From Solimonas flava DSM 18980 (GTDB lineage: Bacteria; Pseudomonadota; Gammaproteobacteria; Nevskiales; Nevskiaceae): a stretch of 64,000 bases of DNA. A model generated the notes under the pieces. It was not told where the DNA came from. It saw only the letters and a list, made by a program, of their open reading frames with translations, and ran no database searches. The position numbers and the translations under genes are program-made. The stretch spans positions 390,906 to 454,905 of the forward strand of contig NZ_KE384553.1 in assembly GCF_000426685.1 (NCBI RefSeq), written 5' to 3'. Below are positions 46,379-58,064 of this stretch, in pieces (positions within the stretch are counted from its first letter, which is position 1; every line of letters starts with the position of its first letter).

Positions 46379-48088
46379 ATGCACGAGCTGGTGATTCGCG
46401 GCGGCCGCATCGTCGACGGCAGCGGCGGCGCGATCTTCGAGGGCGACGTCGCCGTCGACGCGGGGCGGCTCGTGCAGGTCGGCGGCCGCGCCGGCCGCGG
46501 CCGCGAGGAGATCGACGCGCGCGGCCGGCTGGTCACACCCGGCTGGGTCGACATCCACAGCCATTACGACGGCCAGGCGACCTGGGACCCGTACCTGACG
46601 CCGTCCGGCGGCCATGGCGTGACGACCGTGGTGATGGGCAACTGCGGCATCGGCTTCGCGCCGGCGCGCCCGCAGCGGCGCGACTGGCTGATCAACGTCA
46701 TGGAAGGCGTCGAGGACATCCCGGGCACGGCGCTGCACGAAGGCATCCGCTGGCGCTGGGAGAGCTTCCCCGAATATCTCGATGCGCTCGCCGACACGCC
46801 GCGCGCGCTCGACGTCGCCGCGCAGGTGCCGCACAGCGCGCTGCGCGATTACGTGATGGGCGAGCGCGGCGCGACGCGCGCGGCGGCCGGCGACGACGAG
46901 ATCGCGCGCATGGGCGCGCTGCTCGGCGACGCGCTGCGCGCCGGTGCGGTCGGCTTTTCGACGTCGCGCACCCGGCTGCACCTTGCCGCCGACGGCAGCG
47001 CGGTCGCCGGCAGCTTCGCCGACGAGCGCGAGCTGGGCGGTCTGGCCGAAGCGCTGCGCGCGGCCGGGCACGGCGTGTTCCAGCTGGTGTCCGATTTCCG
47101 CGACGCCGGCGCCGAGTTCGCCACGCTGCGCCGTCTGGCGCTGCGCAGCGGCGTGCCGGTGCACTACGTGCTGGTCCAGGACCCGGAGGCGCCCGGCAAG
47201 TGGCGCACGCTGCTGCAGCTCACCGACGCCGCGGCGCGCGAGGGCGCGGCGCTGACCGCGCTCGTCGGCTGCCGGCCGGTCGGCATGCTGATCAATCTCG
47301 ACAGCCGCCATCACCCGTTCTCCGAGCATCTTTCGTATCGGCGCATCGCCGCGCTGCCGCTTGCCGAGCGTCTGCGGTGCCTGCGCGAACCCGGCTTTCG
47401 CGCGCAGCTGCTCGCCGAGCGGCCGAGCGGCGGCAGTGCCTGGTGGCGCACGCGCCTGGCGCAGTACGAAAACCTCTACCGGCTCGGCGATCCGCCCGAC
47501 TACGAGCCGGCGCCGGAGCGCTCGATCGCGGCGATCGCCGCGCGCCAGTCGCGCGAGCCGGAGGAGGTGGTCTACGACATCCTCGCCGCCGGCGACGGCA
47601 GCGACTGGCTGTACCTGCCGCTGTTCAACTACGCCGACGCCAGCTACGACGCGCTGCAGGCGATGCTCGCGCATCCGCACAGCGTGCTGAGCCTCGCCGA
47701 CGGCGGCGCGCATTGCGGGCTGATCTGCGACGCCGGCGCGCCGACCTTCCTGCTGACGCACTGGGTGCGCGACCGCGTGCGCGGGCCGCGCTTGCCGCTG
47801 GCGCGCGCCGTGGCGATGCAGAGCGCGCGCACCGCGGCGGCCTACGGCCTGCGCGATCGCGGCCGTCTGGCGCCGGGCCTGCGCGCCGATCTCAACGTCA
47901 TCGATTTCGAGCGCCTGCATCTGCAGCAGCCGCGCTGGGCGAACGATCTGCCGGCCAGCGGCCGCCGCCTGCTGCAGCCGGCGCAGGGTTACGTCGCGAC
48001 GGTCTGCGCCGGCCGCGTCACCTGGCGCGACGGCGCGCCGACCGGCGAATTGCCGGGCCGCGTGGTGCGCGGCGCCGCCGTCGCCTGA
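46379..48088 (+). CDS. N-acyl-D-amino-acid deacylase-family amidohydrolase (paralog 2)
   Basis: A 569-residue amidohydrolase paralogous to that at 39341: DIHSHYD metal motif near residue 60, [16 protein letters not shown], and the C-terminal [19 protein letters not shown] with [25 protein letters not shown]-type text is typical of D-aminoacylase. Large central insertion as in its paralog. Acts on an N-acyl-D-amino acid or related substrate (inference). It is divergent from thiolase and followed by an amino-acid dehydrogenase on the same strand, which could use the released amino acid after racemisation. Confidence 0.82.
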
Positions 48089-49265: not shown

Positions 49266-49751
49266 ATGAGCGACCGACTCGTGGAACGTATCGCCGCGGC
49301 GCTGCTGGCGCGCGGCGAATGGCTGGCGACCGCCGAATCCTGCACCGGCGGCCTGATCGCCAAGCTGCTGACCGATCTGCCCGGCTCGTCGGGCTGGTTC
49401 GAGCGCGGCCTCGTCACGTATTCCAATCTCGCCAAGATGGAACTGCTCGGCGTGCCTGACGCCGTGCTCGCCGAGCATGGCGCGGTCAGCGACGAGTGCG
49501 CGCGGGCGATGGCGCGCGGCGTGCTGCGCGCCGCGCCGGTCGATTGGGGCATCGCCGTCACCGGCATCGCCGGCCCCGGCGGCGGCAGCGACGACAAGCC
49601 GGTCGGCACGGTGTGGATTGCCTGGAGCCGGCGCGGCCATGCTCCGGACGCGCATCGTTTCTTCTTCGAAGGCGGCCGCGACAGCGTGCGCGAGCAGACC
49701 GCGCAGGCCGCGCTCGAGGGCTTGCTGTACCGCATTCGCGAAGCGGCCTGA
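49266..49751 (+). CDS. pncC: CinA-family nicotinamide-nucleotide amidohydrolase
   Basis: A 161-residue single-domain CinA C-terminal protein that deamidates nicotinamide mononucleotide to nicotinic acid mononucleotide. Signature AESCTGGLIAKLLTD near residue 23 and VTGIAGPGGGSDDKPVGTV near 100 are conserved in PncC. In many gammaproteobacteria it sits directly upstream of recA; here recA begins 5.8 kb further on, but on the same strand. Confidence 0.92.
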   Translation: MSDRLVERIAAALLARGEWLATAESCTGGLIAKLLTDLPGSSGWFERGLVTYSNLAKMELLGVPDAVLAEHGAVSDECARAMARGVLRAAPVDWGIAVTGIAGPGGGSDDKPVGTVWIAWSRRGHAPDAHRFFFEGGRDSVREQTAQAALEGLLYRIREAA

Positions 49752-49847: not shown

Positions 49848-50441
49848 ATGGAACCGAACCGCCTGTTCTTCGCGCTGTGGCCCGGCGAAGCGGTGCGCGC
49901 GGCGTGCCAGGCGGCGGCCCGGCAGCTCAACATCCGCATGCCGTCCGGCGGCTATCTGAGCAAGCCGGAGCGCTACCACATCACGCTGCTGTTCCTCGGC
50001 GACCGCGTGCTACCGGCGCATCAGGATGCGGCGCTGAAGGCCGCGGCGCTGGTGCATGCGCCGCCGTTCACGCTGACGCTCGACCATGCCGGCTCGTTCC
50101 GCAACCGCGAGATTCCGTGGTGGCTCGGCGCACGCACGCTGCCGTCGGAACTGAACACGCTGCATGCGCGGCTGCGCGACGCGATGGTGCAGGCCAATGT
50201 GCCGCTGGAGCGGATGCGCTTCGTGCCGCACCTGACGATCGCCCGCAACGCCAAGCTGGCATTGCCGCCGACGCCGATCGAGCCGATCGCCTGGGACGTC
50301 GGCGAGTTCGCGCTGATCCGCAGCCGCCTCGATCTGCAGCCGGTCCGTTACGACGTGCTCGGCCGCTGGCCACTGGACGGTGGCGCGGACACGCCGCCGT
50401 CGCCGGCACCGGTGCGCGCGCAGCTCGATCTCGGTTTCTGA
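49848..50441 (+). CDS. thpR: RNA 2',3'-cyclic phosphodiesterase (2H superfamily)
   Basis: A 197-residue 2H phosphoesterase. The two HxT motifs are HITLLFLGDR near residue 44 and HLTIARNAK near residue 127. ThpR proteins hydrolyse 2',3'-cyclic phosphates on RNA ends and can ligate tRNA halves in vitro. It is 96 bases after pncC on the same strand and probably cotranscribed; the C-terminus is unconserved. Confidence 0.9.
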   Translation: MEPNRLFFALWPGEAVRAACQAAARQLNIRMPSGGYLSKPERYHITLLFLGDRVLPAHQDAALKAAALVHAPPFTLTLDHAGSFRNREIPWWLGARTLPSELNTLHARLRDAMVQANVPLERMRFVPHLTIARNAKLALPPTPIEPIAWDVGEFALIRSRLDLQPVRYDVLGRWPLDGGADTPPSPAPVRAQLDLGF

Positions 50442-50502
50442 GCGGCCCGGCGCTGTCGAGGGTTCGCGCGTCCCGCGACGCCAGTCGGCGGGAGCGAAGG
50501 GC

Positions 50503-51477
50503 TCAAGGCAGCCGGCGATTGTGGAAGAACGCCCAGATCGTATCGTTGGCGCTGAAGTCCTCGGCCGTCAGGCCCAGCCAGCGCAGCGGCAGCGGCGTCT
50601 GCCACTGCGGCCAGGTATGGCCGCCGCCGCCGATCGTGTAGAGCCGCGCGGCGCCGCGCGCGCAGCCTGCGGCGGTGGCGTCGGTGGTGGCGGTGCCGTC
50701 GTCGACGAGATCGGGCAGCGTCTCGTACAGCACGGCGCCGGCGATGCAGCCGGAGCGCTGCGCCCAGGTCTTGAACAGCGAGGATTCGGCGACGAACTCA
50801 TCGTTGCCGTCGTAGGGCACGATGCGGTCGTCGGTGCCATGCATCAGCAGCAGCGGTACCGCGCGCGCCGGCGCGCAGCTTGCTGCGGCGGTGCGCCGCA
50901 TGCCGGCGGCGACCGACGCGGCGGCGGCGATCAGCTCCGGATGCTCGCAGGCGAAGCGCGTGGTCATGAAGCCGCCGTTCGACATGCCGGCCATGTAGAT
51001 GCGCCGGGCGTCGAGCGGATGGCTGGCGACGGCCTGTTCGATCAGCGCGGCGAGGAAGCCGACGTCGTCGGCGCCGTCGCGCATCGGGTCGTCGTTCCAG
51101 CGGCGCTGCTCGGCGGCCGGCGCGATGATCCAGGCGCCGGTACGCGCGCTCAGCTCGGCGATGCGCGTGACGTTGAGGAAATCCGACGGCGTGCCGGTCG
51201 CGTAATGGAGCATGACGATCGCCGGTGCCGCGGCGCCGGACGCGGTGTCCGGCGCGACGTAGATCACCTGTCGCGCGCGGCCTTCCCAGGTCACGGTTTC
51301 TTCGAAGGTGCGGGTTCCGGTGACCGCGACCGGCTCGCGGCCGGCGGCGGGTTCGATCTGCGGATCGTCGACCGAAGCCGGCGGGCTCGCAGTATCGTCA
51401 TCGGCGCCGCCGTTGCCGCCGCCGCAGGCGGCGAAAAGCAGGGTGACGGCGAGCAGGGAGGATCGGAACAGCATCAT
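50503..51477 (-). CDS. PHB-depolymerase-type esterase, lipoprotein (paralog 1)
   Basis: A 324-residue lipoprotein with lipobox LFAAC (Cys18) and a low-complexity linker. The alpha/beta hydrolase domain has the nucleophile in MAGMSNGGFMTTRFACEHP, the acid in LMHGTDDRIVPYDG and histidine in GGGGHTWPQW, as in the LpqC/PHB-depolymerase esterases. Substrate may be a polyester or aryl ester. A second paralog lies at 54280, with the Ig-like lipoprotein between. ATG choice at 51477 is the first of the frame. Confidence 0.85.
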   Translation of the reverse strand: MMLFRSSLLAVTLLFAACGGGNGGADDDTASPPASVDDPQIEPAAGREPVAVTGTRTFEETVTWEGRARQVIYVAPDTASGAAAPAIVMLHYATGTPSDFLNVTRIAELSARTGAWIIAPAAEQRRWNDDPMRDGADDVGFLAALIEQAVASHPLDARRIYMAGMSNGGFMTTRFACEHPELIAAAASVAAGMRRTAAASCAPARAVPLLLMHGTDDRIVPYDGNDEFVAESSLFKTWAQRSGCIAGAVLYETLPDLVDDGTATTDATAAGCARGAARLYTIGGGGHTWPQWQTPLPLRWLGLTAEDFSANDTIWAFFHNRRLP

Positions 51478-51613
51478 GGCGGACTCGATTTGAGGACGCA
51501 GAACGCCGACCGCTCCGCCAAGGCGGATCGGCAGCGTCGGCTCGGGCTGGCAGGATCGGCGGCGCCCGATCAGCTCTCGGGCGCCGCCGCGGATCGTTGC
51601 GGACCGGGTGGAA

Positions 51614-53947
51614 TCAGTCCTGGTTGGTGACGCAGGCGCCGTAGACGTTCAGCATCTTGGCGACTGCGATCAGGCCGCCCTTCATCTTGTAGCGAATGCC
51701 GTAGACGCCGGCCTCGACGGTGGCGTCGTCGAGCGGGAAGGAGACGAAGGACTTGCTGCCGTCGTTCACCAGGTACAGCGCGTCGAGCTGCAGGCCGTTG
51801 GCGTTGCTGTAGTCGAGCGTGCCGAGCGTGACCTGGCCGTCGGCGTCGACGCCGGTGATCGGAGCCAGGCTGTCGAGGCCCAGCAGCGACAGCGACAGTG
51901 CCTGGTTCGGATTCGATACGATGAAGCCGGCGCGCTGGCCCTTCTTGATCGGCAGCGGGCGGATCGAGCCGTCCTCGTTCTGGTCGGTCGAGTAGACGTC
52001 GACGACGATGTTGCCGATGCCGAACAGATCGAGCGGCAGCAGCAGCTGCGTGTAGGTGTCGAGGTCCGCGTCGATCACTTCGCTGCCGTCGCCGGCGCTG
52101 ATGGCGCCGACCGGCGTTTCGCCGACCGAGCTGCGGATCTTCACCGCGACGTTGGCGACGCGGCGCCACGGCACTTCGACGCCGGTGCCGGTCAGCAGCA
52201 GCGAGTGCGAGCCGATGCCGCACTGATCGGCATCGCCGGTGACGTCGACGCCGACCAGCTTGACGACGCTTTCGCCGCCGGGCACGCCGCAGCGCAGCGC
52301 GAAGTCGTAGTGGCCGTCGAGGCCGGTGGTGCTGATCGACAGACCTTCGCTGCTCAGCGGCTGCGCGCCGCTCCAGCCGCCGCGGTTGGCGATGCCGCCC
52401 TGCGCGCTGCAGAACACGGCGTTCCGGGTCGACCACTTCAGGGTCAGGGCGTCGCCGGCGTTGAGTGCGGCGCTGGCGCCGTCGTTGACGCTGAGTTCGA
52501 GCGTCGGCTTGGCGTCGCCGACCGTCACGTAGACCTCGGTCTGGCTGCTGTCGCTGCCCGCGCCGGCGGCGCAGGCGAGGCGATAGGTGTAGACGCCGGG
52601 CGCGGTCGGCGCGACCAGCGTCTGTGAACCCGTGCCGGCCTTGTTGCCGCTCCAGGTGCTGCCGTCGCCGCCGCTGGCGGTGCAGATGGACGCGCCGTCG
52701 GCGGCCCAGTCCAGCGTGAACGACGAACCCGGCGCGATCTGCGACGGCGTCGCCGCCAGCGTGCCGGTCGGGGCCGCGGAACCGGCCGCCGGCACCACGG
52801 TGCTCGCCGAGGTCTTGCCGCCGCTGCTTTCGCAGACCAGCGTGTAGAGCGCGCTGCCGTCGGCGGCGAGGTTGGCGCCGTCGAGCGACACGCTTTCGCT
52901 GCCGCTCGCATCCTTGCTGCCGGTCCACGCCGGCACGTTGGCGCTGTAGGCCGTGCAGGCGTTGGCGCCGCCGAAGTCCCAGCTCAGCGCCGTCGGATTG
53001 CCGGCCGCGCCGCTGAAGCTGCCGAAGCTCGGCGGCGGCAGCGCGCCGACCGAGAGCACGGTCGTGGCTTCGTTGCTGGCGCCGCTGGCGTCACTGCAGC
53101 GCAGCGTATAGGTGTAGGCGCCGGCGGCGAGGCCGCTGATGGCGAAGCTGCCGCCGCTCTTCGACGGCGTCGTCGCGGTCCACGCCGGATCGTCGCCGAG
53201 CGCGCTGCACTGCGTCGCGCCGCTGGCGGTCCAGCTCAGCGTGCTGGTGTCGCCGGTCTGGATCTTCGACGGCGACAGGGCGATCGTCAGCGACGGACCG
53301 GCCTGCGTGACGATGACGATCGAGCTGGCGAGGTTGAGGCCGCCCTGCGCGTTGGTGCAGCTGAGCGTGTACAGATACGCGCCGGCTGCGGTCGGCGCCG
53401 GCGTGTAGCCGCCGCTCAGCGCCTTGCTGCCGGTCCAGGCCGGATCGTTGCCACTGCCGGTGCACTGCACCGCGGTCGGCGCCGACCAGCTGATGCGCGT
53501 CGCGCTGCCGCCGAGCTGCATCGTCTGCGTCGCCGGCGTCAGCGTGATGCCGGGGCCGGTGACGCTGTTCGAGACCTTGACCGTGACGTCCATGCTGCTG
53601 GCCTGGTCGCCGTTGTTGCAGCTCAGCACGTAGGTGTACGTGCCGGCCGTCACCGGCACCGTCACCATCGCGTAGCCGCTGGTCGGCAGCGTGCCGCTCC
53701 AGCCGCTGCTCGCGGTGCCGCCGCTGGCCGTGCAATCGGTCGCATCGCTGACGTTCCAGGCGAAGGGCAGGGTCGCGCCGGGGACGGCTTCGCCGGCGGC
53801 AGCGCTGAACGTGATCTTCGGCGCCGGCAGCGTCGCGTCGCCGCCGTGTTTGTGGTCACCGGAGCAGGCGCTCAGTGCCGAGCCGAACAGCAGGCCGCAC
53901 AGGGCCCATACCCGCGCAGGCGCGCGGCGTTTTTCGAAACCATCCAT
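51614..53947 (-). CDS. Large lipoprotein with about six Ig-like W/C repeats
   Basis: A 777-residue lipoprotein with lipobox LSAC (Cys28); ATG 53947 has GGGGAAG upstream. Residues about 45-530 hold six repeats of roughly 85 residues, each with a tryptophan strand, a cysteine and a second Trp-rich turn (for example FAWNVSDATDCTASGG, LSWTASGATQCSALGD, LDWAADGASICTASGG, LKWSTRNAVFCSAQGG), ending in YTYxLxC strands. Paired cysteines suggest disulfides within each repeat. The C-terminal 230 residues are a different, non-repetitive domain. Likely a surface adhesin or ligand-binding protein. Confidence 0.7.
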   Translation of the reverse strand: MDGFEKRRAPARVWALCGLLFGSALSACSGDHKHGGDATLPAPKITFSAAAGEAVPGATLPFAWNVSDATDCTASGGTASSGWSGTLPTSGYAMVTVPVTAGTYTYVLSCNNGDQASSMDVTVKVSNSVTGPGITLTPATQTMQLGGSATRISWSAPTAVQCTGSGNDPAWTGSKALSGGYTPAPTAAGAYLYTLSCTNAQGGLNLASSIVIVTQAGPSLTIALSPSKIQTGDTSTLSWTASGATQCSALGDDPAWTATTPSKSGGSFAISGLAAGAYTYTLRCSDASGASNEATTVLSVGALPPPSFGSFSGAAGNPTALSWDFGGANACTAYSANVPAWTGSKDASGSESVSLDGANLAADGSALYTLVCESSGGKTSASTVVPAAGSAAPTGTLAATPSQIAPGSSFTLDWAADGASICTASGGDGSTWSGNKAGTGSQTLVAPTAPGVYTYRLACAAGAGSDSSQTEVYVTVGDAKPTLELSVNDGASAALNAGDALTLKWSTRNAVFCSAQGGIANRGGWSGAQPLSSEGLSISTTGLDGHYDFALRCGVPGGESVVKLVGVDVTGDADQCGIGSHSLLLTGTGVEVPWRRVANVAVKIRSSVGETPVGAISAGDGSEVIDADLDTYTQLLLPLDLFGIGNIVVDVYSTDQNEDGSIRPLPIKKGQRAGFIVSNPNQALSLSLLGLDSLAPITGVDADGQVTLGTLDYSNANGLQLDALYLVNDGSKSFVSFPLDDATVEAGVYGIRYKMKGGLIAVAKMLNVYGACVTNQD

Positions 53948-54124
53948 GGACTTCCCCAACGAGACAAGATGCTGATGCGATGCCCGCGCCGCAGACGGCG
54001 CGGACGGTGAATCCCCGAAATAAGTTGGGCGCGACCGCACGATGGGGATGCACGATCCTCACTGCGCAGGTCCTGCGCGTCGTTCGCTGCTACGGACGAC
54101 GCTTACACGGTATTGCTCCGTTTG

Positions 54125-54143
54125 TCCTACGACAATAGTAGGA
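54125..54143. promoter_or_regulatory. Inverted repeat, candidate operator
   Basis: TCCTAC and GTAGGA are perfect inverted six-mers separated by GACAATA, about 180 bases upstream of the Ig-like lipoprotein start. No protein is assigned to it. Confidence 0.35.
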
Positions 54144-54210
54144 ACAACCCCATTGTCGACGGGCGCGGACCATAGGGCGCTTGCGTTGCCGTCTCATGAC
54201 ACGCGCGTCG

Positions 54211-54236
54211 TCACGCGCGCTGTCGAGCGCGCGTGA
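54211..54236. repeat. GC-rich hairpin downstream of esterase
   Basis: TCACGCGCGCT (54211-54221) pairs perfectly with AGCGCGCGTGA (54226-54236) around a four-base loop, 44 bases after the minus-strand esterase stop. No U-tract on that strand, so probably an mRNA-end structure or weak terminator. Confidence 0.6.
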
Positions 54237-54279
54237 AAGAGAAGCCGGAGGACGGACTTGCCGACTGCTGCCGCGGCGT

Positions 54280-55323
54280 TTACGGCCGGCTGTAGTCCTT
54301 GAAGAAGTCCCAGATCGCCGCCGTCGCCGAGAAATCGTGCGAGGTGCGGCCGAGGCGCAGTTTGCTGTCCTGGTAGGCGCCTTCCGGCCAGGTGTGGCCG
54401 CCGTTGTCGACGGTATAGAGCTGCACCGCCGCGCCGGAGTTGCAGACTTCGTTGTGCGAAAGCACGGTCGTCGTGCCGTCGCGGGCGATATCGGGAATCG
54501 CATCGTCGAGCACGCCGGACGGATCGCAGTCGTTGGTCTTCTGCCAGCGCGCGAAGGTCTGCGCCGCCGACAGCAGTCCGTAGCGCGCGTTGTAGTTCAC
54601 GAGCACGTCGTTGGTGCCGAGGATCAGCGTCATCGGCACGGCGGCGGCCGGCGCGCAGACGGCATCCTGCGACTTGCGCATCGTCGCGACGACCTGGGCG
54701 GCGGCGGCGATCAGCTGTGGCCGCTCGCAGGCGAAGCGCGCGGTCATGAAGCCGCCGTTCGACATGCCGGCGAGATAGATGCGCTTGGGATCGATCGGAT
54801 GGCGGGCGACGGCGTCGGCGATCAGCGCCGCCAGATAGCCGACGTCGTCGATGCCGTTGTCGGACTCCGGGTCTTCGTTCCAGCGCCGGTTCTCGGCGGC
54901 CGGCAGGATGACCCAGGCGCCGTCGTAGGCGGCGAGATCGCCGGCGTGGATCAGGTTGGCCATCGCCTTGGGCGTGCCTCTGCCGAAGTGCAGGAAGATC
55001 ACCGCCGGCGCCAGCGCCGCCGGTTCGGCCTGCGGACGAATGTATAGCGCGTTGCGGCCGATGCCCTGGTGGACCAGGGTCTCCTCGAAGCTCACAGTGC
55101 CGGTGGTCGGCTCGAGGTAGCGGCCGGCGAGGCGGTCCGCGGTTTCGGCCATCGCCGCCTCGAAGCGGGCCATCGTGGCCTGGAAGGCGGCACGGGTCTG
55201 GGCGAGCGAGGCCGACAGCGCCGACAGGGTCTGCTGCAGGCCGTCGAACAGGCCGGCGTGGCTGGTGGTGCTCAGGCACAACAGCACGAGGCCGAGCGCC
55301 AGCCTCGATGAAAGACGCGACAT
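54280..55323 (-). CDS. PHB-depolymerase-type esterase, secreted (paralog 2)
   Basis: A 347-residue exported protein with an ordinary signal peptide (LALGLVLLCLSTTSHAG) and not a lipobox. Residues about 25-68 form an Ala-rich amphipathic helix (LSALSASLAQTRAAFQATM) that may be a coiled coil. The esterase domain is like paralog 1: AGMSNGGFMTARFACERP, LILGTNDVLVNYNA, and VDNGGHTWPEGAY. So one esterase is anchored and one released or differently tethered. ATG 55323 is preceded by GGGGAATCCAGG. Confidence 0.85.
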   Translation of the reverse strand: MSRLSSRLALGLVLLCLSTTSHAGLFDGLQQTLSALSASLAQTRAAFQATMARFEAAMAETADRLAGRYLEPTTGTVSFEETLVHQGIGRNALYIRPQAEPAALAPAVIFLHFGRGTPKAMANLIHAGDLAAYDGAWVILPAAENRRWNEDPESDNGIDDVGYLAALIADAVARHPIDPKRIYLAGMSNGGFMTARFACERPQLIAAAAQVVATMRKSQDAVCAPAAAVPMTLILGTNDVLVNYNARYGLLSAAQTFARWQKTNDCDPSGVLDDAIPDIARDGTTTVLSHNEVCNSGAAVQLYTVDNGGHTWPEGAYQDSKLRLGRTSHDFSATAAIWDFFKDYSRP

Positions 55324-55596
55324 CCTGGATTCCCCGTGATCTTGAGTTCGAGCTTTCCGGCTCGATTGGCAAATAGCGTACCGGAGTTCGCCGCGCAGGC
55401 GCCGTGGCCCGGCGGACGCTGCCAAACTGTCAAGCTCGGGCGTTTCGTGTCGCTTTGTGACCGGATGCGCAGCCCGTTCTGTGGGACAATGCCCCAATCC
55501 CGCAGCGGCGATCGGCACGGGCTCAGCTTATGAGCCCGTGGCGGCTGACAATACGCCGGCTTCCTACTACAACAGACTTCAGTCAGAGACGCTCCA
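55324..55596 (+). promoter_or_regulatory. recA upstream region
   Basis: This 273-base gap divides the divergent esterase and recA. A perfect 10-base-pair hairpin CACGGGCTCA / TGAGCCCGTG with a GCTTA loop (55516-55540) lies 56 bases before the recA start. I looked for gammaproteobacterial LexA sites (CTGT-N8-ACAG) and found none that fits, so SOS control is not shown. Confidence 0.4.
55516..55540 (+). repeat. Perfect hairpin in recA leader
   Basis: Arms CACGGGCTCA and TGAGCCCGTG pair over all ten positions with a five-base loop. No U-tract follows. It would form in the recA mRNA leader or serve as a protein-binding dyad. Confidence 0.7.
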
Positions 55597-56596
<1,000 letters not shown>

Positions 56597-56622
<26 letters not shown>

Positions 56623-57130
56623 GCGAGACGCCGACCGTGCGCCGCTCGATGCCGACGCGGCGCGCGGTCGCGCGCTGAAGCTGTTGTCGCGCCGCGAGCA
56701 TTCGGCCGCCGAGCTGGCGTTCAAGCTGCGCCAGCGTGGGGCCGACGAAGCCGTCGCCGATGCCGCGGTGGCGCGCATGCGCGAAGCCGGCTGGCAGTCG
56801 GACGGGCGCTATGCCGAGATGCTGGTGCGCAATCGCGTCGCCCAGGGCTACGGGCCGCTGCGCATCCGTGCCGACCTCGCGGCGGCCGGCATTCCCGAAG
56901 CCGAGGCGCGCGCGGCGCTCGCCGCCGCGCAGGCCGACTGGAGCGAGCTTTGTGCGACGCTGCGCGAGCGTCGCTTTCGCGCGCCGCCGCGCACGGCGGC
57001 CGAATGGCAGAAGCAGTATCGCTACCTCGCCAGCCACGGCTTCGCGGCCGATGCGATCCGCGGCGCGTTGAAGCGCTTTACTGCAGCGCTGGCGGAGGAC
57101 GGCTGGGAATCGTCCGAGGAGCCGCTGTAG
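56597..57130 (+). CDS. recX: Regulatory protein RecX
   Basis: A 177-residue basic, helical protein starting at GTG 56597, overlapping recA by 26 bases; GGAG lies 10 bases upstream. RecX motifs: [39 protein letters not shown] and [15 protein letters not shown], the three-helix repeats typical of RecX. It caps or destabilises RecA filaments. It is convergent with the patatin gene, whose 3' end overlaps its last 53 bases. Confidence 0.92.
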
Positions 57131-58064
57131 CGACGCCCGCCGCTGCCGGCGGCGCGGCCTGCATCGGCAGCAGCGGCGGCGCCATGCGCTCGGCGAGTCG
57201 CGCGCGGATCTGCGGCATGGCGGCCAGGGCGGCGCGCTCGCCCTGCAGGATCGCCAGCTGCTTGCTTTCGAAGTCGCTCGAGCTGATACCGCTCAGATCC
57301 GGCTTGATGATGACGTCGGCCTGCGGCAGTTCGGCGTCGCGCAGCGACTGGCCCATGATCTCGAAGGTGCGCATCACCACGTCCAATTTGCCGGTCGTTG
57401 CCGTGCCGGCCGGCGGCGTGGCGACGTCGACGGCGATGATGAAGGTCGCGCCGAGCTGCTTGGCGTAGCGCACCGGCACCGGGCTGACGAGGCCGCCGTC
57501 GACGTATTCGAGCGTGCCGATCGCGGTCGGCTGGAACACGCCGGGCACCGACGAGGAGGCGCGCACCGCCTGGCCGACGTTGCCGCGCTGGAACAGCACG
57601 GCCTGGCCGGTGTCGACGCGGGTCGCCACGCAGGCGAACGGAATGCCCAGCGCCTCGATCGGCCGGTTCTTGACCGCCTGGTTGACGAAGTTCTGCAGCG
57701 CTTCGCCGCGGATCAGGCCCTTGCCGAACATCGACCAGTCGGCGATCGTCGCGCGGTCGAGGTCGAAGGCCATCTGCTGCAGGTCGAAGCCGCTGTAGCC
57801 GGCGGCGTACAGCGCGCCGGCGACGCTGCCGGCGCTGGTGCCGACGATCAGGTCCGGGCGCAAGCCCTGGGTGTCGAGCATCTTGAGCACGCCGACGTGC
57901 GCGAAGCCGCGGGCGCCGCCGCCGCCCAGCACGAGCGCGACTTTCGGCGGCGGCGGAAGCGGCTGCGGAACCGGCGGCGGTTCGGGCGCCGTCGGCGTGG
58001 AACCGCAGGCGGCGACGAGCGCCAGCGCGAGAAGCCAGCCGGCGCGGAGCAACGAGGTCTTCAT
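57078..58064 (-). CDS. Patatin-like phospholipase lipoprotein (RssA-like)
   Basis: A 328-residue lipoprotein with lipobox LVAAC (Cys20) and a proline-rich linker. The patatin core is clear: oxyanion hole [15 protein letters not shown], nucleophile in [15 protein letters not shown] and aspartate in [19 protein letters not shown], the Ser-Asp dyad of lipid acyl hydrolases. It likely hydrolyses acyl esters at the outer membrane. It overlaps recX tail-to-tail and is divergent from alaS. Confidence 0.9.

Follow-up and report, generated by a model that had tools for sequence, protein, structure and literature searches.

In the genome of Solimonas flava DSM 18980, three genes read on the minus strand separate thpR from recA, and the question they raise is whether the block arrived in one piece and serves one function, or was put together from genes with separate histories. 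The window analysed, a 64,000-nt stretch of contig NZ_KE384553.1 (positions 390,906-454,905; genome size 4.46 Mb), had received an initial annotation that described two esterase genes (est1 and est2) flanking a gene for a lipoprotein with immunoglobulin-like (Ig) repeats; these open reading frames (ORFs) are real and lie exactly where they had been placed, and by coding score the block contains just these three genes. The reading that we favour, with moderate confidence, is one of surface-gene turnover at recA, involving an Ig-repeat tether with a probably lectin-like tip and extracellular ester hydrolases. The block and the two genes that border it are:

49848-50441, plus strand: thpR (LigT; PF02834, E 1e-16), convergent with est1
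50503-51477, minus strand: est1, predicted lipid-anchored alpha/beta hydrolase of Esterase_PHB type, 324 amino acids (PF10503 and NF050058 scores)
51614-53947, minus strand: predicted Ig-repeat lipoprotein (the Ig protein), 777 amino acids (lipobox, six Ig-like repeats, C-terminal lectin-like domain)
54280-55323, minus strand: est2, predicted secreted alpha/beta hydrolase of Esterase_PHB type, 347 amino acids (PF10503), divergent from recA
55597-56622, plus strand: recA, divergent from est2

The ends of thpR and est1 are 61 bp apart, est1 and the Ig gene are separated by 136 bp, the Ig gene and est2 by 332 bp, and est2 and recA by 273 bp.

A search for recA gave a match in all of 61 genomes, the window genome included (weak or partial in G016, G027, G035 and G059), in nearly all of them to one close gene 71-99% identical over most of its length; second recA-like genes with 58-64% identity were also seen (G004:C24:121247-122209, G013:C2:29857-30825 and G050:C14:15741-16727). 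The recA loci of 29 relatives were then read by tblastn with twelve window proteins as queries. An est2-like gene on the minus strand adjoins recA in ten of these 29 loci: in six of the ten other genomes of the genus (G001, G003, G004, G005, G007 and G008; seven of eleven with the window genome) and, outside the genus, in all three genomes examined of g8 (G017, G028 and G036) and one of two of g5 (G025). Comparison of coordinates likewise puts est2 beside recA in 11 of the 61 genomes, own included, and nine of these 11 cases are without the Ig gene at the site. G003 has est2 next to recA, with pncC and thpR on a different contig. No est2 was found at recA in the genus genomes G002, G006, G009 and G010; recA directly follows thpR in G002, G006 and G010, and pncC, too, is elsewhere in G009. 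est1 and the Ig gene, on the other hand, occupy the site in one of the 29 loci and so in two of the eleven genus genomes. The one locus is that of Solimonas variicoloris DSM 15731 (G007, NZ_KB907938.1; Nevskiales, Nevskiaceae), the nearest relative compared, where the DNA is 93% identical to the window over a stretch that begins 9 bp outside est1 and extends beyond the start of recA.

Because of this gene order across the 29 loci, we regard est2 as an older neighbour of recA than est1 and the Ig gene, which look like a lineage-specific addition at the thpR-recA site of the window genome and S. variicoloris. The initial annotation had taken all three genes for a lineage-specific insertion and had proposed a comparison of gene order in relatives; run here, that comparison places the complete trio at the site in these two genomes alone among the loci read and upholds the insertion for est1 and the Ig gene, but not for est2, which adjoins recA in most of the genus and in other genera. 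This corrects an easy misreading, in which the whole block is called an insertion although one of its genes is an older resident. We propose that the thpR-recA interval of Solimonas and its close relatives readily accommodates surface-protein genes on the minus strand, and that here est1 and the Ig gene would have been added between est2 and thpR in the lineage of S. flava and S. variicoloris.

The paralogy of the two esterases, also noted initially, is borne out: the products are 46% identical and share a clade. Two trees were computed, the first from 65 proteins (tblastn matches of at least 100 bits among the loci retrieved, each cut to its C-terminal 330 residues), the second from 35 of these, with a long row, G004_C24, among those omitted. 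In the 65-row tree est1, all recA-linked esterases of the genus and of g8, and G004_C24 form one clade (98/90); in the 35-row tree est1 again lies within the clade of recA-linked esterases (92/86). Within it, est1 groups not with est2 but with the recA-linked esterases of Sinimarinibacterium sp. CAU 1509 (G004) and a Nevskiales metagenome bin (G005), with support of 89/81 in the 65-row tree, where G004_C24 is included and joins est1 weakly (88/56), and of 91/91 in the 35-row tree. est1 would accordingly be a diverged paralogue in the recA-linked clade, and its being a recent copy of est2 is not favoured; an old duplication, a transfer and a long-branch error would fit its position in these trees indistinguishably. 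A recent insertion of all three genes, accompanied by a local esterase duplication, is very unlikely. The identity of the two esterases, a 181-nt stretch over which their DNA matches at 82%, and an approximately unbiased (AU) test, in which a grouping of est1 with the est2 proteins of Solimonas is not rejected (p 0.102), speak for it; it is contradicted for est2 by the presence of that gene at recA in most of the genus and beyond, and est1 is not nested among the Solimonas est2 proteins in either tree and sits on a long branch (0.8-1.1 changes per column). The internal duplication proposed earlier thus stands as paralogy, while a recent local copy runs counter to the best trees. The recA-linked esterase of G025 falls outside this clade, beside rows that are not recA-linked (65-row tree), so the recA-side position may have acquired an esterase on more than one occasion. 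Two related esterases that stand in tandem in a different genus (L117, G029:C104:29414-31751) are independent of these, each being the other's closest relative in the 65-row tree.

Matches to the Ig protein at E <= 0.001 occur in 20 of the 61 genomes, mostly through the repeats, and full-length relatives in five: the window genome, S. variicoloris (94% identity), G004 and G005 (54%) and G048, of another family (49%). A scan of contigs with two peptide patterns, short enough that relatives may be missed, found, besides the window's own, the other four of these and no more. In G004 and G005 the Ig gene follows argS and a small gene and lies upstream of uvrD at some distance (the three names are assigned from the translations). 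A move of the Ig gene out of an argS-uvrD interval in the window genome was considered and rejected, as the nine genus genomes besides G004 and G005, the window's own among them, have no Ig-like ORF there.

These two genomes hold the closest relatives of both added genes outside S. flava and S. variicoloris, in the Ig protein and in the esterase with which est1 groups, and one might conclude that est1 and the Ig gene arrived jointly by horizontal transfer from a Sinimarinibacterium-like relative. We consider this unlikely. G004 and G005 carry the two genes on different contigs, so that a later joining would be needed; est2, taken as vertically inherited, is about equally diverged from their esterases (52-53% identity), and descent with losses fits as well. 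The composition of the three genes is native, as the check suggested by the initial annotation found: the G+C contents of est1, the Ig gene and est2 (71.6, 70.9 and 68.9%) are unremarkable beside the 69.6% of the window, as are those at third codon positions (89.8, 93.7 and 91.1%).

In S. variicoloris the interval seems to have grown further. On one contig its match to the window stops exactly where thpR ends; the match resumes on another contig, 9 bp past the est1 stop. The thpR contig carries, near its end, the C-terminal part of a TetR-type gene, whose frame is cut by a stop about 270 nt before the contig end, as if further DNA interrupts the TetR gene; the end of the est1 contig is occupied by the N-terminal part of a TetR gene, and further in come genes for a carboxylesterase, a major facilitator superfamily (MFS) transporter, a TonB-dependent receptor and a glycosidase of glycoside hydrolase family 3 (GH3). 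We infer that a cassette of some 9 kb or more lies between thpR and est1, gained by S. variicoloris together with the TetR parts. Its GH3 protein has distant matches alone (32-43% identity), in five of the ten other genus genomes.

The Ig protein is divided, from its N-terminus, into three parts:

53864-53875, minus strand: lipobox LSAC, read from the sequence
52232-53827, minus strand: six Ig-like or PKD-like repeats, residues 41-572 (alignment, AlphaFold strands, PF22352 near its cut-off)
51617-52231, minus strand: C-terminal domain, residues 573-777 (a family of about 190 residues), without a Pfam match and with a predicted galactose-binding-like fold (F5/8C, CBM32, F-type lectin)

Signal sequences and lipoboxes of all three block proteins were read from the sequences by the usual rules, by which LSAC here, and LFAAC in est1, would be lipoboxes. 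An alignment of five Ig proteins has 16 invariant cysteines, namely Cys17 and the lipobox Cys28, one pair in each repeat (72/110, 162/197, 247/284, 331/372, 422/459 and 513/553) and two in the C-terminal domain (576 and 772). The repeats are 83-92 residues long and on average 29% identical to one another; PF22352 scores 26.4 on the protein, just below its cut-off of 27, and is above it in two of the three orthologues scanned. An AlphaFold model from the five rows has beta strands over the repeats, with a predicted local distance difference test score (pLDDT) mostly of 70-90 and a poor C-terminus. The whole sequence has no match in the PDB at E <= 1; Foldseek with the whole model gave 410 matches at E <= 0.001, of which the best 50 are arrays of Ig-like domains and further long proteins of many domains (TM-scores below 0.2). 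An array of Ig-like domains is what the protein has in common with surface proteins built of Ig or PKD repeats (K319L-like PKD and bacterial Big domains; GhpA of Aureispira is the top Foldseek match), and it differs from them in its six repeats of this length with one cysteine pair each, its lipid anchor and its lectin-like tip. The lipid anchor would tether the protein to the outer membrane, and the Ig-like domains, six in number and each probably stabilised by a disulphide, would form its stalk.

The C-terminal domain was followed separately. Among 85 genomes of the order, the window genome counted, at least 25 have relatives of it; this count is a floor, since two genomes positive with a broader profile had been negative in the 85-genome search. 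Of 369 genomes sampled from the class, five had the domain by the broader profile, and three of these five belong to the order. For the alignment, 27 of 29 matches were used (L250 and L257 were left out), and none of the 27 members matches any Pfam family at E <= 0.1; against the PDB, the profile had a single match, at E 0.79, which we take as chance. VIA-align 2 compared the model built from the 27 rows with solved structures and gave a best Z of 10.0 (root-mean-square deviation 3.3, 134 residues aligned, about 10% identity), with F-type lectin and fucose-, chitosan- and galactose-binding modules; the best 50 entries, with Z down to 8.1, are by title mostly chains of lectins, carbohydrate-binding modules (CBM) and carbohydrate enzymes, and include, among others, netrins, allantoicase and an intraflagellar protein. 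A galactose-binding-like fold is likely, going by the predicted model: the domain would share it with F5/8 type C, CBM32 and F-type lectin domains, from which it differs in lacking a Pfam match in its 27 members and in the low identity. At the distal end of the stalk it might bind a glycan or a similar surface ligand. This family of lectin-like surface domains, without a Pfam match and frequent in the order, appears to us the most notable part of the locus, and ligand binding, if true, would offer a way to learn how these bacteria attach to plant or biofilm glycans and make use of them. The window genome has four further matches to the domain (L263, L267, L270 and L271; C4:200535-201893, C12:100081-100626 and C4:380786-381208), two of them close together in a 1035-residue frame.

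Both esterases pass the gathering cut-off of 23 bits for PF10503 (Esterase_PHB; est1 42.7, est2 28.5), and both fall below the curated cut-off of 150 for NF050058, the type 1 polyhydroxyalkanoate (PHA) depolymerases (145.4 and 132.1). The motifs AGMSNGGFMT, RRWN(D/E)DP and GGHTWP that the initial annotation gave as shared are all present in their alignment; the putative catalytic triads, by motif position, are Ser166/Asp217/His287 in est1 and Ser188/Asp239/His310 in est2, and the serine of GxSxG, the aspartate and the histidine, whose roles are deduced from those positions, are invariant across seven aligned esterases and est1 and est2. One esterase was also correctly described as lipid-anchored and the other as having an ordinary signal peptide, as far as the sequences can be read: est1 has the lipobox-like LFAAC (about 51424-51435) and est2 a signal sequence ending ..SHA|G. 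With the Esterase_PHB family and the type 1 PHA depolymerases they share the alpha/beta hydrolase fold, GxSxG, the aspartate and histidine, and export signals. They differ from the depolymerases, besides the scores, in domain content. The NF050058 catalytic match stops six residues short of the C-terminus (at residue 318 of 324 in est1 and 341 of 347 in est2), and Pfam and NCBIfam detect no second domain in either; a linker and a C-terminal substrate-binding domain are features that we take to define type 1 depolymerases of short-chain-length PHA. The solved structures nearest to a profile of the seven esterases are the feruloyl esterase 9j07 (E 3.3e-18) and the PHB-depolymerase-family esterase 8daj (E 2.9e-14); another feruloyl esterase, 8jh8, and the acetylxylan esterase 5x6s are also among the nearest, all three carbohydrate-ester enzymes being distantly similar. 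The genome has seven matches of this esterase kind with est2 as query and eight with est1, queries included.

No match to PhaC_N was found in the genome (among 14 control genomes, the domain was detected in Caulobacter), and it is therefore improbable that the esterases act on PHA made by the organism itself. With both enzymes also below the NF050058 cut-off, PHA is doubtful as the polymer attacked, action on external PHA being possible. That est1 and est2 hydrolyse esters outside the cell can fairly be inferred; they would do so as Ser-His-Asp hydrolases, est1 anchored to the membrane and est2 secreted, on substrates more likely to be small or carbohydrate-linked (feruloyl- or acetyl-type) esters or oligoesters than stored PHA.

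Direct co-operation of est1, the Ig protein and est2 is possible. The gaps between their genes contain two hairpins:

51558-51588, minus strand: perfect 12-bp G+C hairpin in the Ig-est1 gap, without a U tract (-39.8 kcal/mol for 84 nt, z -2.4), also a self-inverted repeat
54211-54236, minus strand: 11-bp G+C hairpin in the est2-Ig gap, without a U tract (z -1.1 for the whole 180-nt stretch)

The est2-Ig gap also holds a promoter-like site upstream of the Ig gene (one found against 0.2 expected, by consensus match only). Because of the hairpins and this site, separate transcription of the three genes would be as likely as an operon; terminator-like sites in 50300-55700 (four found, 2.6 expected) carry no claim here. 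In the initial annotation the esterases were suggested to attack a polymer bound by the Ig protein. Such a polymer-degrading surface unit, with the Ig lipoprotein binding an ester polymer that the anchored and the free esterase hydrolyse, is unlikely, even though the three genes are same-strand neighbours for exported proteins and occur together in two species, the C-terminal fold is predicted to be lectin-like, and genes for GH3, TonB receptor, MFS and carboxylesterase proteins adjoin est1 in S. variicoloris. The suggestion finds little in its favour elsewhere: est2 mostly stands at recA without the Ig gene at the site, the Ig contigs of G004 and G005 have no esterase among the matches listed (one or two weaker matches per genome lie beyond the list), and a comparison by eye of the remaining listed genes for the C-terminal domain puts none closer than about 14 kb to a listed esterase in the genomes where both were searched; the esterase searches omitted eight genomes with domain matches (G063, G072, G074, G077, G078, G081, G311 and G386). 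The gaps of 136 and 332 bp, with their hairpins and promoter-like site, are not operon-like. Support for a functional link between the three genes is weak.

We therefore return to the favoured reading, in which the locus is mostly ordinary turnover of surface genes beside recA. Several observations weigh against it. The species tree from RecA and ArgS is poorly resolved, with one of 13 inner branches starred, and does not separate gain from loss of the Ig gene; a tree constrained to join est1 with the est2 proteins of Solimonas is worse by 7.2 log units, which with the AU result leaves the placement of est1 not decisive; and the S. variicoloris cassette spans two contig ends without overlap. 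The 27-row model of the C-terminal domain is of moderate confidence (pLDDT 62.7, predicted template modelling score 0.68), its best Z is modestly above the 7 to 8 that models without a clear match typically reach, according to the tool's own note, and Foldseek alone gave a best E of 1.2e-3, with none at E <= 0.001. Lastly, both species that possess the three genes have them side by side, an arrangement that would also fit a functional unit. A bolder idea, that an unnamed lectin-like domain family has expanded in Nevskiales and that the recA-side interval is a growing site of glycan-ester utilisation (a lectin-tipped tether, an anchored and a free esterase of feruloyl or acetyl type, and in S. 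variicoloris the GH3 protein, TonB receptor, transporter and carboxylesterase), strikes us as quite unlikely.

The genes further out complete the picture of the locus:

49266-49751, plus strand: pncC/cinA C-terminal-type gene (PF02464, E 1.6e-58)
56597-57130, plus strand: recX (PF21982, PF02631 and PF21981)
57078-58064, minus strand: patatin-like phospholipase lipoprotein in the recX-alaS gap (PF01734, E 2.4e-36)

Pfam confirms AlaS, an amino-acid kinase with ACT domains (LysC) and CsrA, all on the plus strand; recA is identified by its high identity to one gene in the relatives. The plus-strand order pncC, thpR, recA, recX, alaS, lysC and csrA given initially holds, except that recX and alaS are not adjacent: the patatin-like gene between them had been overlooked. 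It is at the same place in several relatives, and the plus-strand run is thus interrupted twice, on both sides of recA.

Among the block genes by coding score there is no integrase or transposase, and no search aimed at transposases was made. The largest repeats are the est1/est2 and Ig-repeat matches (best 20 of 29 direct families). A plasmid origin of the block was rejected, with no megablast match in 72,556 plasmid records, as was a defence function, the three proteins having no PADLOC match. A link of est2 to the SOS response through a promoter shared with recA was rejected as well: CTGT-N8-ACAG, which we take to be the LexA box, was not found with up to one mismatch in the 273-bp gap, and its six matches in the window are below chance expectation (only this form of the box was tested). 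The titles and opening parts of the abstracts of publications on Solimonas, Sinimarinibacterium, Nevskiales and related esterases or domains contain no description of the locus. Upstream, an amidohydrolase-like gene (46379-48088, plus strand) lies in the window between two genes that we take to be thiolase-like and leucine-dehydrogenase-like, and these two adjoin each other in S. variicoloris.

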